This document shows, piece after piece, positions 49,758 through 56,720 of a DNA stretch of 64,000 nt. Both the position numbers and the translations under genes were made by a program. Location of the stretch: assembly GCA_016177735.1 (NCBI GenBank), contig JACOUS010000025.1, forward strand, positions 1 through 64,000, in the 5' to 3' direction. The DNA comes from Ignavibacteriales bacterium (lineage in GTDB: Bacteria > Bacteroidota > Ignavibacteria > Ignavibacteriales > Melioribacteraceae). Numbering within the stretch: position 1 is the first letter of the stretch; the number at the start of each line of letters is the position of its first letter. The notes below the pieces were generated by a model. That model worked only from the letters and a program-made list of their open reading frames with translations, made no database searches and was not told the origin of the DNA.

Positions 49758-51143
49758 TTATTTCATTCCCTTCTTTGTCAATTCAACACGATTCAAGCCG
49801 TTGAGTGCTGCAACGCGGTATGCTTCTGCCATCGTTGGATAATTGAACGTTGTGTGAATGAAATACAACAAACTATTCCCTTCTCCTTTCTGCGACATGA
49901 TTGCTTGCCCGATATGAATAATCTCCGAAGCACCGTAACCAAAACAATGTATGCCGAGTATCTCAAGTGTATCGCGGTGAAAAAGAATTTTTAACATTCC
50001 AACTCTGTGACCCGTTATTTGTGCGCGAGCAAGATGTTTGAAAAATGAATGACCAACTTCGTATGGAATTTTTTGTTCGGTTAATTCCCTCTCGTTCAAA
50101 CCGACAGAACTGATTTCGGGAATAGTGTAAATGCCGGTTGGAATATCTTTAACTTTGAGTGTGGTTTTTTCTCCGAACAATAAATTGCGTGCGGCAAATC
50201 TTCCTTGATCGTACGCCGCACTTGCAAGCGAAGGATAACCGATTGCATCACCAACAGCATAAATGTGCGGAAGTTTTGTTTGATAAAATTGATCAACCGG
50301 AATTGAACCTCTTTCATTTGGAATAATGCCGAGTTCTTCGAATCCCATATTCTGCGAGTTACCCGTTCTTCCTTGTGCCCACAAAAGGTAATCGCTTCTA
50401 ATTTGCTTGTTCGACTTCAAATAGATTGTTACACCGTCATCATCGGGTACAACTTTTTCATATTCTTCGTTGTGGCGGATTAACACTCCGTTCTCGCGCA
50501 AATGATATGCAAGCGCATCAATAATTTCATCATCAAGAAAAGAGAGAAGTTGATGACGTGTGTTAATCAAATTTACTTTGATGCTGAGTCCGCGGAAGAT
50601 AGATGCGTACTCGCAGCCGATTACACCGGCTCCGTAAATTGTTATTGTGCGCGGATTGTCTTTGATCTTCAAAAGTTTATCGCTGTCAATTATCCGCGGA
50701 TGTGTAAAATCAATATCTGCCGGATGATACGGACGCGAACCAACAGCAATTATGAATGCATCGGCTTCGTAAACTTTTTTTAAGCCGTTAGGTTCGGTTA
50801 TTTCTACTTTGTGTTGATCGAGAAATTTTGCCCGCCCAATTATCAGTTCAACTTGATTTCTTTTGTAAAAACTTTCGCGCAGTTCAACTTGACTGAGAAT
50901 AACGGATTCGGTTTGCCTTAGCAATGTTTGATAATCTGCATTGTGCAATTTACAGCCGTCCATTAAAATTTGGCTTGCATGCCGCAATGCTTTGCTTGGA
51001 ATTGTACCTTTATGTGTGTTTGCACCACCCACAAGCGAGAACTCATCGCACACGGCAACTTTCTTTCCAGCTTTTGCACAAGCCATTGCCGCGCCTTCTC
51101 CGCCGGGTCCGCTGCCAATTATTATTATATCAAATTTTTTCAT
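49758..51143 (-). CDS. sthA: soluble pyridine nucleotide transhydrogenase
   Basis: The FAD-dependent enzyme interconverts NADPH and NADH. The 461-aa protein has the N-terminal FAD motif [20 protein letters not shown] (about 7-26). [14 protein letters not shown] replaces the redox-active Cys pair of lipoamide dehydrogenases, which separates SthA from them. A second Rossmann motif [14 protein letters not shown] and [15 protein letters not shown] follow, and the C-terminal interface contains [20 protein letters not shown]. Length and motifs are standard. It is convergent with the GyrI-like gene. Confidence 0.94.
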
Positions 51144-51284
51144 TCGTCAAGATTTATTTTGTTTGCTGCGCAAAGTTATACAACATTGTTCTAAACACAA
51201 AGCCGGGAATTTGTAACCCGTCCCTAAATTCCCTCACTTGTAAATTATGCTCAGCCATTTCGTTATGAAAATTAAAAGCGTAGA

Positions 51285-51320
51285 GTTCCCCTCCCTGGAG
51301 GGGACGAAGGGGTGGGTTGT
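51285..51320 (+). repeat. palindromic repeat left of the DUF559 gene
   Basis: A 36-base unit with hairpin CCCCTCC-CT-GGAGGGG followed by ACGAAGGGGTGGGTT. It is identical to 51803-51838 and similar in inverted orientation to 51724-51755. Homology extends to the left (ATTAAAAGCG). The remainder of 51144-51350 shows no gene. Confidence 0.9.
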
Positions 51321-51350
51321 TTTAGTTTTTTGTGTTAACTATCTTGAACC

Positions 51351-51719
51351 ATGAACAGAAGAAAGATCATTCCATACAAACCATATCTCAAAGAACTTGC
51401 ACGCAAACTTAGAAACAGCAGCACCAAAACAGAAATACTCCTTTGGCATGAACTTAAGAATAAAAAAATGAAGGGTTTTGACTTCGATAGACAAAGACCG
51501 ATTGATGATTACATCGTTGATTTCTACTGCAAAGATTTAATGCTCGCAATAGAAGTTGACGGGGAAAGTCATATCGGTGAAGAAGAATTTGATAAAAGAA
51601 GGCAAGAGAGATTAGAAAATCTCGGAGTTCGTTTCTTGCGTTTTAATTCGATGGATGTTTTTTATAATCTTGATAGAGTTGTAAAAGAAATTGAAAGATG
51701 GATCGATAACAATGCATAA
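51351..51719 (+). CDS. DUF559 (Vsr-like) endonuclease domain protein
   Basis: The 122-aa protein is a complete DUF559 domain of the Vsr-like PD-(D/E)XK-related fold: TEILLWHEL with Glu28, FDRQRPIDDYIVDFYC with Asp57, and IEVDGESH with Glu68, Asp70 and His74. RFLRFNSMDVFYNLDRVVKEIE follows. The acidic/His set suggests an active nuclease. The protein has no other domain. It sits 30 bases inside a left palindromic repeat and 4 bases before an inverted right copy; a third copy follows at 51803. The element could be mobile or mobilised; this is inference. Confidence 0.9.
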   Translation: MNRRKIIPYKPYLKELARKLRNSSTKTEILLWHELKNKKMKGFDFDRQRPIDDYIVDFYCKDLMLAIEVDGESHIGEEEFDKRRQERLENLGVRFLRFNSMDVFYNLDRVVKEIERWIDNNA

Positions 51720-51723
51720 TCTT

Positions 51724-51755
51724 ACCCACCCCTAAATCCCCTCCGGCGAGGGGAC
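51724..51755 (-). repeat. palindromic repeat right of the DUF559 gene, inverted
   Basis: The minus strand reads GTCCCCTCGCCGGAGGGG, then ATTTAGGGGTGGGT, a diverged inverted version of 51285-51320 with a 6-bp hairpin. With the left copy it brackets the nuclease gene like terminal inverted repeats. Confidence 0.85.
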
Positions 51756-51802
51756 TTTTTAAATGCAAATTCCTCATATAGAGAAAAATTAAAAAGCGAG
51801 TT

Positions 51803-51838
51803 GTTCCCCTCCCTGGAGGGGACGAAGGGGTGGGTTGT
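51803..51838 (+). repeat. palindromic repeat, third copy
   Basis: Identical over 36 bases to 51285-51320 and in the same orientation, with similar AT-rich sequence and AAGCG to its left. The following stretch to 51980 shows no gene. Confidence 0.9.
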
Positions 51839-51980
51839 ACAACATTGAATATATCCCAATATTCTCCGGAATAATTTTAATCATAAGGGGTGTAGTTAGC
51901 TTTTAAAAATTTTAGAACTACACTCTGCTTGCAAAACAATATGATTTATATATTTTTCATTTTCTAAACTATAGCCGGCT

Positions 51981-52265: not shown

Positions 52266-53948
52266 ATGTCCAACGAACCAAATAAAGTAATCTATTCAAT
52301 GATTGGAGTAAGCAAATACTACAATCAAAAAGCAGTATTAAAAGATATTTACCTTTCATATTTCTACGGTGCGAAAATCGGCGTGCTTGGTTTAAACGGC
52401 GCCGGAAAAAGTTCTCTGCTCAGAATTCTTGCCGGAACGGATAAAGATTTTAACGGCGAGACTGCAATCTCACCCGGATTCACAGTCGGCATGTTGGAAC
52501 AAGAACCAAAACTCGACAACACAAAAACAGTGAAAGAAATTGTGCAAGAAGGAGTTCATGAAATTGTTGATCTTCTGCGCGAGTACGATGAAATAAATGC
52601 AAAGTTTGCAGAGCCGATGAGTGACGACGAAATGAATGATTTGATCGAGCGGCAAGGAAAAGTTCAGGATAAACTTGATGCCGTAGGCGCGTGGGATATC
52701 GATTCCAAACTTGAAATGGCAATGGATGTACTCAACTGTCCGCCGGCAGATACTCCGGTAAATGTTTTATCGGGCGGCGAACGGAGACGCGTTGCGCTTT
52801 GCAGATTATTGCTTAAGCAACCAGACATTCTTCTTCTCGATGAACCAACAAACCACCTCGATGCCGAAACTGTTTTGTGGCTCGAAGCCGAATTGAACCG
52901 TTACGCCGGAACAGTAATTGCAGTAACACACGATAGATATTTTCTTGATAACGCTGCCGGATGGATTTTAGAACTCGACCGCGGAGAAGGAATTCCATGG
53001 AAAGGAAATTATTCATCGTGGCTCGAACAAAAACAGCAAAGACTTCAACTCGAAGAGAAGAAAGAAACCGAGCGGCAGAAAACTTTGCAGCGCGAACTCG
53101 AATGGGTTCGGATGGCACCGCGTGCAAGACATGCAAAATCGAAAGCGCGTATCAGTGCTTACGAACAAATGTTAAACGAAGAAAGCGAAAAGCGGCAGAA
53201 AGATGTTGAGATTTATATTCCGTCCGGTCCGCGTTTGGGCAATGTTGTTATCGAAGCTGAAAATGTTTCCAAAGGTTACAGCGAAAAACTTTTATTCGAG
53301 AATTTGAGTTTCAAACTTCCTCCCGGCGGAATTGTTGGAGTAATCGGTCCTAACGGCGCCGGTAAAACTACTTTGTTTAAAATGATTGTAGGACAAGAAA
53401 AAGCCGATGCCGGAAGTTTCAGAATCGGCGATACAGCTAAACTTGCATACGTTGATCAAAGCCGCGATGTACTTGATCCGGAAAAAACAGTTTGGGAAAT
53501 GATCAGCAGCGGCGATGAATTGATAAAAATGGGAAACAGAGAAATTAATTCGCGTGCGTATGTGGGACAATTTAATTTCACCGGTGCAGATCAACAGAAA
53601 AAAGTTGGAATGCTTTCCGGCGGCGAACGGAACAGAGTTCATCTCGCAATTGCATTAAAGCAAGGCGCAAATGTTATTCTTCTCGATGAACCGACAAACG
53701 ATCTCGATGTAAATACAATGCGCGCGCTCGAAGAAGGTCTGCTTAATTTTGCCGGATGTGCAGTTGTAATCAGTCACGATAGATGGTTCCTCGATAGAAT
53801 CTGCACACACATTCTCGCTTTCGAAGGCGACAGCAAAGTTGTTTGGTTCGAAGGAAATTTTTCAGACTATCAGGAAAACCGCCGCGAACGTCTTGGTAAA
53901 GATGCAGACATTCCGCACAGAGTTAAGTACAAAAAACTGACAAGATAG
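52266..53948 (+). CDS. ettA: energy-dependent translational throttle EttA (ABC-F)
   Basis: The ribosome-associated twin ATPase gates the first peptide bond in response to ATP/ADP. The 560-aa protein has a first ABC domain ([38 protein letters not shown]) and an arm insertion of about 40 residues after it. The linker is charged (EWVRMAPRARHAKSKARI, the PtIM signature). The second ABC domain has [24 protein letters not shown] and LLDEPTNDLD. The length agrees with EttA and not with antibiotic-resistance ABC-F proteins. Confidence 0.95.
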   Translation: MSNEPNKVIYSMIGVSKYYNQKAVLKDIYLSYFYGAKIGVLGLNGAGKSSLLRILAGTDKDFNGETAISPGFTVGMLEQEPKLDNTKTVKEIVQEGVHEIVDLLREYDEINAKFAEPMSDDEMNDLIERQGKVQDKLDAVGAWDIDSKLEMAMDVLNCPPADTPVNVLSGGERRRVALCRLLLKQPDILLLDEPTNHLDAETVLWLEAELNRYAGTVIAVTHDRYFLDNAAGWILELDRGEGIPWKGNYSSWLEQKQQRLQLEEKKETERQKTLQRELEWVRMAPRARHAKSKARISAYEQMLNEESEKRQKDVEIYIPSGPRLGNVVIEAENVSKGYSEKLLFENLSFKLPPGGIVGVIGPNGAGKTTLFKMIVGQEKADAGSFRIGDTAKLAYVDQSRDVLDPEKTVWEMISSGDELIKMGNREINSRAYVGQFNFTGADQQKKVGMLSGGERNRVHLAIALKQGANVILLDEPTNDLDVNTMRALEEGLLNFAGCAVVISHDRWFLDRICTHILAFEGDSKVVWFEGNFSDYQENRRERLGKDADIPHRVKYKKLTR

Positions 53949-54470: not shown

Positions 54471-54534
54471 GTAGCGCAGATTTCCAATCTGCGCTTAAAA
54501 AGATTCTTATGAACAGATTAGAAATCTGTTCTAC
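54471..54534 (+). repeat. REPIN-like inverted pair, left of the RAYT gene
   Basis: GTAG (54471-54474) directly precedes a perfect hairpin CGCAGATT/AATCTGCG (extended stem 54473-54495). After an 15-base AT-rich spacer a second hairpin GAACAGATT/AATCTGTTC (54511-54531) ends in CTAC, the complement of GTAG. Two GTAG-hairpin units facing each other are the classic REP pair bound by RAYT transposases. Confidence 0.9.
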
Positions 54535-54574
54535 TTTTCGAAATCATTTGTTATCTTGCTTCAAAAGAGGGATT

Positions 54575-55189
54575 ATGATAGAAGCACATTATCATAGAAG
54601 AAACCTTCCGCATATTTACATACCTGAAAGAAGTTATTTTATCACTTTCCGATTAAAAGGCTCACTCCTGATGAGAAAGTTATACGAACTACGAAATATC
54701 CTCGAAGCAAAACACAAAGCTCAAAGCAAAGCAGAAGTTTATGAGGTCAACAAAAAATTCTTCGCCGAATATGACAAATCATTAGATACGGCAAACAAAG
54801 GTCCCAAATTTTTGTACGTCGATAAAATTACCGATATCATCATCGGTTCATTCAAGTATTACGACCGGAAAGATTATTCTTTAGTTTGTGTTTGTATAAT
54901 GCCAAACCACGTTCATGTTTTGTTTACATTATTGGAAAAAAGCAGATCGTTGGATAAGATAATGCAATCCGTAAAAAGATATTCAGCTTTACAAATTAAC
55001 CGCCAGTTAAATAGAAGCGGTACTGTTTGGCAGCCGGAAAGTTATGACCATGTTATTAGAGATGAGGATGAATACTTTAATATTATCCGCTACATACTGG
55101 ACAACCCGATAAAAGCTGGCTTAATAGATAACTGGTTTGAATGGAAAGGAACCTTTATTAGTGATTATTTAAAAGAAATGTTGGAATAA
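54575..55189 (+). CDS. REP-associated tyrosine transposase (RAYT, Y1/IS200-like)
   Basis: The 204-aa protein is a Y1 HUH-type enzyme: PERSYFITFRLKGS near the N-terminus (17-30), metal-binding His112-Val-His114 in IMPNHVHVLF, SVKRYSALQINR, and VWQPESYDHVIRDEDEY. The YILDNPIKAGLI block (173-184) is characteristic of RAYTs. RAYTs cut and join REP hairpins and are thought to spread them. ATG 54575 with AGAGGG upstream is chosen; a longer frame from 54509 would read through the left REP pair. REP-like pairs flank both sides. Confidence 0.95.
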   Translation: MIEAHYHRRNLPHIYIPERSYFITFRLKGSLLMRKLYELRNILEAKHKAQSKAEVYEVNKKFFAEYDKSLDTANKGPKFLYVDKITDIIIGSFKYYDRKDYSLVCVCIMPNHVHVLFTLLEKSRSLDKIMQSVKRYSALQINRQLNRSGTVWQPESYDHVIRDEDEYFNIIRYILDNPIKAGLIDNWFEWKGTFISDYLKEMLE

Positions 55190-55195
55190 TAAACT

Positions 55196-55263
55196 GTAGC
55201 GTGCAGCGCAGATTTCTAATCTGCGCTTAAAAAATTTATGAATAGATTAAAAATCTGTTCTAC
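55196..55263 (+). repeat. REPIN-like inverted pair, right of the RAYT gene
   Basis: The same two-hairpin unit as 54471-54534 in the same orientation: AGCGCAGATT/AATCTGCGCT (55205-55227), spacer, GAATAGATT/AATCTGTTC (55241-55261) and CTAC at the end. On the left GTAG (55196-55199) is set off by eight bases, with GCAG at the hairpin base. Confidence 0.88.
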
Positions 55264-55268
55264 ACCTT

Positions 55269-56720
55269 TTACAAGAAGAAAAGCCACATAAAAAATGTGA
55301 CAACCACTATGCCGATGAAATTTATTGCCAGTCCCGTTTTTGCCATATCAATTACACGAAGACGTTCGCTGCTAAAAACAATTGCATTCGGCGGTGTTGC
55401 AACCGGAAGCATAAATGCAAACGATGCTGAGATTGCTGCCGGTATCATCACTAACAACGGATCGATTTGCAGATTCACAGATAACGACGCTAGTATCGGC
55501 AAAAGAATCTGTGCCGTCGCAGTGTTCGAAGTCAATTCTGTTAGAAATGTAAGCACAAAACAAACCGAAGCAACAATAAAAATTATATTCACACCTCTCA
55601 AAGATTCAAATTGTTTCCCGATCAATTCCGAGAGACCGCTTGAAACAAATCCCTCAGCCAAAGCAAATCCACCGCCAAAGAGCAAAATAATTTCCCACGG
55701 AATTTTTCTGATTGCCGTGTGATCGAGTATGTAACCGCTCGTTTTATCTTTTGACGGTATTACAAACAACAAGAAAGACATCGTCATTGCAACAGTGCCG
55801 TCATCAATATAATCCTTTAGCGGAAAGATTGAAGACCAGCCCGGTATTTTGAGAATGCCTAGATCGAGTTCAACGCGGAATATCCATAGAAAGGATGTTG
55901 CGATAAAAATCATTGCAACCGCCTTCTCTTCAAAAGTCATCTTGCCGAGTTTCGCCTTTTCGGCATTGATAATTTCTTTATCTACAAAAAAATCTTTGTC
56001 GGAGCGGTAAAAAATTTTAGTTAACAGAAACCAAACGAATATTAACATGGCAATCGAAATCGGAACGGCAAATTTCATCCACTCACCAAAAAGAATTTCC
56101 GGTCGTTCCGGAAAATTGATTTTATAAATTCTCTGAAACACAAGATTTGGTGGTGTTCCAATTAACGTTGCTACACCACCGATTGAACATGCGTAAGCAA
56201 TACCAAGCATCAAAGCAATTGAAAATCGTTTTGTGTTCTCTTTTCCAATTTCATTTTCAAGTTTCGAAATAATTGCCAAGCCAATCGGCAGAATCATTAC
56301 AGCAGTCGCTGTGTTTGATATCCACATCGATATAAATGCGGCAGCAATCATAAATCCCAAAATAATTTTGGAAGGTTTACTGCCGACAAAGCCGATAACA
56401 TTTAGCGCGATCCGTTTGTGCAGATTCCACTTTTCCATTGCAATTGCAATTATGAATCCGCCCATAAAAAGAAAAATTGTAGAATTGATGTACGCTTCGG
56501 AAGTTGTTTTTGCTGTAAGTGCACCGCTCAACGGAAATAAAACAAGCGGAATGATTGACGTAACTGAAAGTGGAATAGCTTCGGTAATCCACCAGATCGA
56601 CATAAGAATTGCGACAGCGGCAATCTTTTCAGCATTCAGGTATTCGGGACCAAAATCAGCAATCATCGTAAATAAAATTGCTGCCGCAACTCCAAGTGCT
56701 AATGAGATTTTTTGTTTCAA
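55269..56720 (-). CDS. DASS/SLC13 family sodium-coupled anion transporter
   Basis: The 483-aa polytopic protein has both DASS hairpin signatures, SNTATAVMILP (about 134-144) and SNTATAQILLP (about 396-406), the sodium and carboxylate sites of the family. Further motifs are WWITEAIPLSVTSIIPLVLFPLSG and GGVATLIGTPPNLVFQ. The likely substrates are di- or tricarboxylates such as succinate or citrate; sulfate is less likely. It is 10 bases after bshB1 on the same strand, so the two are probably co-transcribed without an obvious metabolic link. The RAYT right repeat lies just beyond its stop. Confidence 0.93.
   Translation of the reverse strand: MKQKISLALGVAAAILFTMIADFGPEYLNAEKIAAVAILMSIWWITEAIPLSVTSIIPLVLFPLSGALTAKTTSEAYINSTIFLFMGGFIIAIAMEKWNLHKRIALNVIGFVGSKPSKIILGFMIAAAFISMWISNTATAVMILPIGLAIISKLENEIGKENTKRFSIALMLGIAYACSIGGVATLIGTPPNLVFQRIYKINFPERPEILFGEWMKFAVPISIAMLIFVWFLLTKIFYRSDKDFFVDKEIINAEKAKLGKMTFEEKAVAMIFIATSFLWIFRVELDLGILKIPGWSSIFPLKDYIDDGTVAMTMSFLLFVIPSKDKTSGYILDHTAIRKIPWEIILLFGGGFALAEGFVSSGLSELIGKQFESLRGVNIIFIVASVCFVLTFLTELTSNTATAQILLPILASLSVNLQIDPLLVMIPAAISASFAFMLPVATPPNAIVFSSERLRVIDMAKTGLAINFIGIVVVTFFMWLFFL

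Follow-up and report, generated by a model that had tools for sequence, protein, structure and literature searches.

A small nuclease gene that lies between GC-rich palindromes raises the question of whether the gene and its repeats form a unit that is able to spread, as was proposed in an earlier note on the stretch of DNA analysed here (the window, which has 64,000 nucleotides and belongs to a genome, G000, of 44 contigs and 3.87 Mb). On balance, the window unit is probably a small mobile element, composed of a homing-type DUF559 nuclease gene and matched tailed palindromes. The layout that had been compared with that of the REP-RAYT elements, although built around an unrelated nuclease fold, survives the checks on copy number and on the flanks of other DUF559 genes.

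The gene is found between an oxidoreductase gene and ettA (Table 1), and it is accompanied by three tailed hairpins, at 51287-51317 (+), 51724-51754 (-, with one mismatch) and 51805-51835 (+), where the count expected from shuffles of the 64-kb window is 0. The three repeats are located where the earlier note had placed them, including the diverged inverted right copy, and the 36-nt right halves of the two units are identical. The right half of the left unit, together with its spacer, matches 51786-51838 with 89% identity over 53 nt, which indicates that the spacer was duplicated in part as well. In addition, the decayed left half of this unit shares 16/20 positions with the left half of the right unit (3/2000 shuffles), and, given that this remnant is detectable, the gene sits between two complete direct copies of the unit. 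The bracketing of the gene by repeats is thus upheld, and what had been taken for a single repeat on the left is part of a full unit that has decayed.

The spacer of the right unit has approximately 50 nt, and this unit, as single-stranded DNA, folds at -30.9 kcal/mol (z -6.1). A direct repeat of 10 bp, TACAACATTG, which was picked after being seen and is equalled in length in 18/4000 random trials, may possibly represent a target duplication. No signal of target duplication was found directly at the tails of the 21 complete units examined, nor any excess of direct repeats such as TACAACATTG at 21 other units.

Table 1. Positions of the genes and repeats at the locus, in window coordinates.
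Feature	Position	Strand	Remarks
Pyridine nucleotide oxidoreductase gene	49758-51143	-	
10-bp direct repeat TACAACATTG, left copy	51179-51188	+	outside the unit
Left repeat unit	51217-51320	+	decayed left half (~51217-51237), spacer, intact right half
Intact right half of left unit	51285-51320	+	with GGGGTGGG tail
DUF559 nuclease gene, 122 aa	51351-51719	+	active-site residues intact; Pfam, invariant residues, model pLDDT 89
Right repeat unit	51724-51838	.	ACCCACCCC tail, hairpin, spacer, hairpin, GGGGTGGGT tail
Left half of right unit	51724-51754	-	
Right half of right unit	51803-51838	+	
Right-unit hairpin, then CTTTTT	51737-51754	+	terminator-like for the nuclease gene
10-bp direct repeat TACAACATTG, right copy	51838-51847	+	
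ettA	52266-53948	+	
RAYT gene (REP-associated tyrosine transposase)	54509-55189		with repeats, 54480-55270

The product of the gene belongs to DUF559 (PF04480; Pfam 9.5e-31, 106.3 bits against a cut-off of 20.6), and the Vsr-like nuclease residues pointed out in the earlier note (E28, D57, E68, D70 and H74) are all invariant in 16 homologues. The solved folds nearest to its AlphaFold model (pLDDT 89) are those of 3hrl, a DUF559 structure (Z 15.2), and then of I-Bth0305I (3r3p; Z 12.6, rmsd 2.0 over 93 residues), and the fold of Vsr (1cw0) is also matched (Z 9.8). The protein matches a homing-endonuclease profile (E 1.9e-4) and has no separate DNA-binding domain. The intact active site is under purifying selection, given that the DUF559 orthologues of two genomes (G032 and G329) differ with a dN of 0.055 and a dS of 0.85. 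Membership of an anti-phage system was considered and rejected, as the PADLOC matches are weak, and so was viral spread, as viral contigs yielded no relative with the query used and there are three distant phage matches.

The pairing of the nuclease with palindromes was followed in DUF559 loci taken from named genomes, from the genus and family of the source genome, and from a set of 296 Bacteroidota genomes. GC-rich hairpins were found to the left and to the right of 44/76 DUF559 loci, but only of 3/282 controls, which were windows shifted within the same loci (p 6e-32), and approximately 12% of the tested loci have a GC hairpin on neither flank. Outside Bacteroidota, where 13 loci and E. coli were sampled, hairpins were found on both sides in 6/12 loci of Calditrichota, Binatota, Pseudomonadota and Bacillota, and on at least one side in 11/12. 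The sequence of the palindrome varies by lineage, and most of the palindromes have one layout in common, i.e., a C-rich tail, a hairpin, a spacer, a second hairpin and a G-rich tail. That DUF559 genes elsewhere usually lie beside such palindromes, as the earlier proposal predicts, is therefore confirmed, with some exceptions, such as the second DUF559 gene of the source genome (L002, 1501-1821, contig C30), which has no GC palindromes around it.

The proposal also expects the repeats to follow the gene from genome to genome, and they do so, being far commoner where DUF559 is present. The palindrome class, searched for as an exact generic pattern, was found in 79/170 Bacteroidota genomes with DUF559 and in 9/126 without it (odds ratio 11, p 1.5e-14, a value that overstates the evidence, given the relatedness of the genomes and the counting of matches at DUF559 genes themselves as copies). 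The reversed pattern, used as a control, gave two matches in total, and, at the family level, repeats are present in 24/40 genomes with DUF559 and in 2/17 without it. The paired inverted repeats are also dispersed, with solo sister-type units in the source genome and a maximum of 85 half-units elsewhere. For example, one genome (G167) has 85 such copies and 5 DUF559 genes, so its copies are mostly solo. Several repeats and no DUF559 were found in three genomes (G083, G252 and G217), which indicates that the repeats can outlive the nuclease or lack one in the same genome; the first of these, a Bacteroidota genome of 2.5 Mb, has 20 copies of the palindrome pattern and no DUF559 match.

At non-orthologous loci, moreover, the more similar two DUF559 proteins are, the more similar the repeats beside them tend to be, in a test run with the coding sequence trimmed, as conserved coding sequence beside the domain might otherwise be picked up. 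Among pairs of loci from different genomes, a strong flank match was found in 2% at 35-45% protein identity, in 32% at 55-70%, and in 82% above 70%. Within genomes, flank matches were found in 0/38 pairs at 35-55% identity, 2/7 at 55-70% and 3/3 above 70%, with one exception among the 9 pairs below 35%. The best flank match in another multi-copy genome picks the most similar protein in 97/164 cases, against 46.7+-9.9 correct when the flank labels were permuted within genomes (0/300 permutations). Given this, nuclease and palindrome types tend to travel in matched pairs.

As regards the source genome, a search for the 36-base unit in its remainder had been suggested in the earlier note. The exact window unit has no other copy across the 3.87 Mb, and five half-units of a sister type, with a GGGGTGTGT tail, are found at four other sites, away from recognised DUF559 genes. 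At one site (L210, 779-1128, contig C3), half-units of the GGGGTGTGT type, one left and one right, are separated by approximately 330 bp in which no gene was recognised; this is possibly a unit whose nuclease gene was lost. Of the empty sites that the earlier note had suggested looking for, a possible case at the window position is provided by one genome (G331), in which the interval between the same two flanking genes is empty and has approximately 134 bp; clearer cases are provided by the MetH and LeuRS loops of relatives, described below. In a sister genome (G001, contig C99, L200), a long unrelated ORF lies between the oxidoreductase gene and ettA, so this interval may be a hotspot of insertion. 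Near ettA, two genomes of other genera (G173 and G032) also have close relatives of the window gene, with the unit on the 3' side only, which suggests that the window copy may be an old resident and not a recent arrival.

The window copy itself is intergenic, and units with DUF559 genes were also found in frame inside host genes, which we take, from their sequence motifs, to be MetH, LeuRS, HsdR and several restriction or methylase genes. The inserts are located between the cap helices and the B12 domain in MetH, in the CP1 loop in LeuRS, and near the Walker A motif in HsdR. In MetH, the empty state is a 25-aa linker, present in most genomes of the family, while the occupied state has 166-193 aa in four genomes (G001, G032, G071 and G323) and in one from another family (G233), and a decayed state of 38 aa, with an apparent remnant of the right half (LPFGEYKGGA), is kept in another (G079). 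In the same way, the LeuRS loop is short in most relatives examined, is occupied by a unit in four genomes (G104, G370, G384 and G054), and holds a degenerate DUF559 (VEFEGKEDE), without palindromes, in a fifth (G337).

The five nucleases borne by MetH form one clade (100/98), as do the five borne by HsdR (100/99), and yet the MetH flanks follow the species, the nearest match to those of G032 being the empty MetH of the same genus; gain and loss of this sort at one site are known from homing genes. No co-conversion tract around MetH is visible at this divergence. The usual layout is unit, gene, unit for the free-standing genes, and half, gene, half inside host genes. The order of the halves also differs, being mostly right half, gene, left half in the former and left half, gene, right half in the latter (p 5e-4, where the nearest half could be oriented and with an in-gene set partly of shared descent). 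In three other genomes (L137, G417; L144, G340; L154, G379), the LeuRS loop holds in-frame palindromic inserts of other kinds, whose peptides include MLKLVQHD and ERHSELNSES, and this loop thus looks tolerant to several repeat families.

The known systems that most resemble these units are the REP, BIME and REPIN repeats and their RAYTs (PMC3116915, PMC2817692, PMC3733652). As in these, short palindromes are arranged head to head, many copies are solo, one type of gene is flanked by its cognate repeats, and both kinds can occur within genes. The enzyme, however, is a PD-(D/E)XK nuclease here and an HUH tyrosine transposase there, and the tag of REP palindromes, GTAG or CGTC at one end (PMC3733652), is absent from the DUF559 units, which end in ACCCACCCC and GGGGTGGGT. 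RAYT loci of the same family, moreover, carry other palindromes.

The EDxHD homing endonucleases resemble the window nuclease in both fold and profile, I-Bth0305I (3r3p) being the closest fold after the DUF559 structure, and homing genes also have empty, occupied and decayed alleles at one site, as in MetH and LeuRS. Known enzymes of this kind are found in introns, in inteins, or free-standing at one site, whereas the DUF559 gene is accompanied by palindromes scattered over many sites, and its product has no separate DNA-binding domain. MITEs and insertion sequences also combine a form that bears a gene with non-coding copies that have inverted ends, but the units have no transposase and, at 21 complete units, no consistent target duplication. 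The Rickettsia palindromic elements (RPEs), as outlined in PMC10969869 after Ogata et al. 2000, have approximately 150 bp and encode a short peptide and no enzyme; they also lie in frame in unrelated protein genes, tolerated in loops, whereas many in-gene DUF559 units encode a full nuclease, something the RPEs of that outline lack. The window nuclease is itself a member of the Vsr-like group of DUF559, YcjD and VsrA, in which ycjD also has a palindrome downstream. By analogy, the DUF559 unit would work like a REP-RAYT pair and like a homing gene, although its enzyme is the defining enzyme of neither the REP-RAYT systems nor a transposon. Among open-access papers, none was found that links this nuclease family to repeats or mobility, or that describes the pairing of DUF559 with palindromes, and the novelty is provisional, given that the literature covered was open-access only.

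The absence of a target-duplication signal, the genomes with repeats and no DUF559, and the bare second DUF559 gene of the source genome count against a mobile element, and other accounts must be weighed. The nuclease might act on the palindromes without spreading them, as a Vsr-like enzyme of repair or restriction, specific for structures or mismatches, that would trim or police repeats able to form cruciforms and would stay linked to them by selection. This account, which draws on the Vsr fold and active site, on the grouping of YcjD with Vsr (PMC1189080), and on a Caulobacter DUF559 protein that acts with a methyltransferase and is reported to cause a DNA-damage response where cells have no methyltransferase (PMC12907096), would also fit the co-variation of enzyme and repeat, which recognition without spreading could produce. 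It is nevertheless unlikely, given that the repeats are commoner, not rarer, where the nuclease is present, and that the gene itself lies within units in the loops of MetH, LeuRS and HsdR, for which close relatives have empty alleles.

Quite unlikely, too, is an account in which the palindromes are moved by another enzyme, such as a transposase, or by general recombination, the DUF559 gene being a passenger between two copies. A gene between two direct units could arise through recombination alone, some genomes have many repeats and no DUF559, and RAYTs are common, being present in 47/57 genomes of the family. A passenger, however, would hardly co-vary with the repeat sequence within genomes, and the RAYT as the mover was ruled out by a flank control, as DUF559-type palindromes were found at 0/30 RAYT loci of the family against 25/35 DUF559 loci. 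The window RAYT has palindromes of its own, GCGCAGATT..AATCTGCGC; the paired palindromes GCGCAGATTT..AATCTGCGC and GAACAGATTAGAAATCTGTTC, found on both of its sides, are unrelated in sequence to the DUF559 repeats. Finally, the hairpins could have an ordinary role in a resident host gene, as terminators or as stabilisers of its mRNA, and be alike through shared base composition, and the hairpin followed by CTTTTT may indeed have a terminator role beside its role as a repeat (two terminator-like sites were found in the region, against 1.0 expected from shuffles). This account is highly improbable, as just one hairpin of the unit is terminator-like, the units lie on both sides of the gene, inside reading frames and solo elsewhere, with long matching tails, and chance is excluded by the shifted controls and the within-genome permutation.

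If the unit is a mobile element, as favoured here, the nuclease would most likely recognise its cognate palindrome, either as a duplex or as an extruded hairpin, and would nick or cut at the palindrome or at a target. Host repair or recombination might then copy the palindrome, with or without the gene, to a new site, the gene-less copies becoming the scattered solo repeats, while units that land in frame in the surface loops of host proteins would survive and decay later. The recurrence of DUF559-palindrome pairs in several phyla, at many sites unrelated to one another and even in frame within essential genes, suggests an overlooked mobile element similar to homing endonucleases. More tentatively, although it could well prove right, DUF559 nucleases may drive a widespread and unrecognised class of mobile elements, from Ignavibacteria to Clostridia and E. 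coli, in which a homing-type nuclease of approximately 120 aa and its cognate palindromes combine REPIN-like solo spread with RPE-like in-frame invasion of essential genes.

If this is true, a large set of palindromic repeats without a known mover would gain a candidate enzyme, the entry of palindromes in frame into protein genes, a question open since the Rickettsia elements, would have a testable answer, and a common "domain of unknown function" would have a role. Builders of genome-engineering tools would likewise be interested in so small a nuclease with one specific palindrome as its match, and ycjD of E. coli, with its repeats, would provide a ready model for the laboratory.

In E. coli K-12, ycjD is a DUF559 gene with a palindrome just downstream, and the same 41-nt core recurs between pstB and pstA, between zntA and tusA and, in a subset of strains, between ypfG and tkt. 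The K-12 allele of pstB-pstA is longer than the empty one of other strains by exactly 92 bp, a clean indel with the 8-bp repeat AACCGTGT at both junctions, which may have arisen either by insertion, with 8 bp duplicated, or by deletion between the repeats; the 92 bp are present in approximately 10/24 evenly sampled records. The sapF-fabI interval was rejected as an empty site, as it is not clean and has an efflux operon in other strains (PMC12817139). The ypfG-tkt site (L089, L277-L284) is occupied in some E. coli strains by the ycjD-type palindrome and, in other strains sampled, by a classical REP/BIME.
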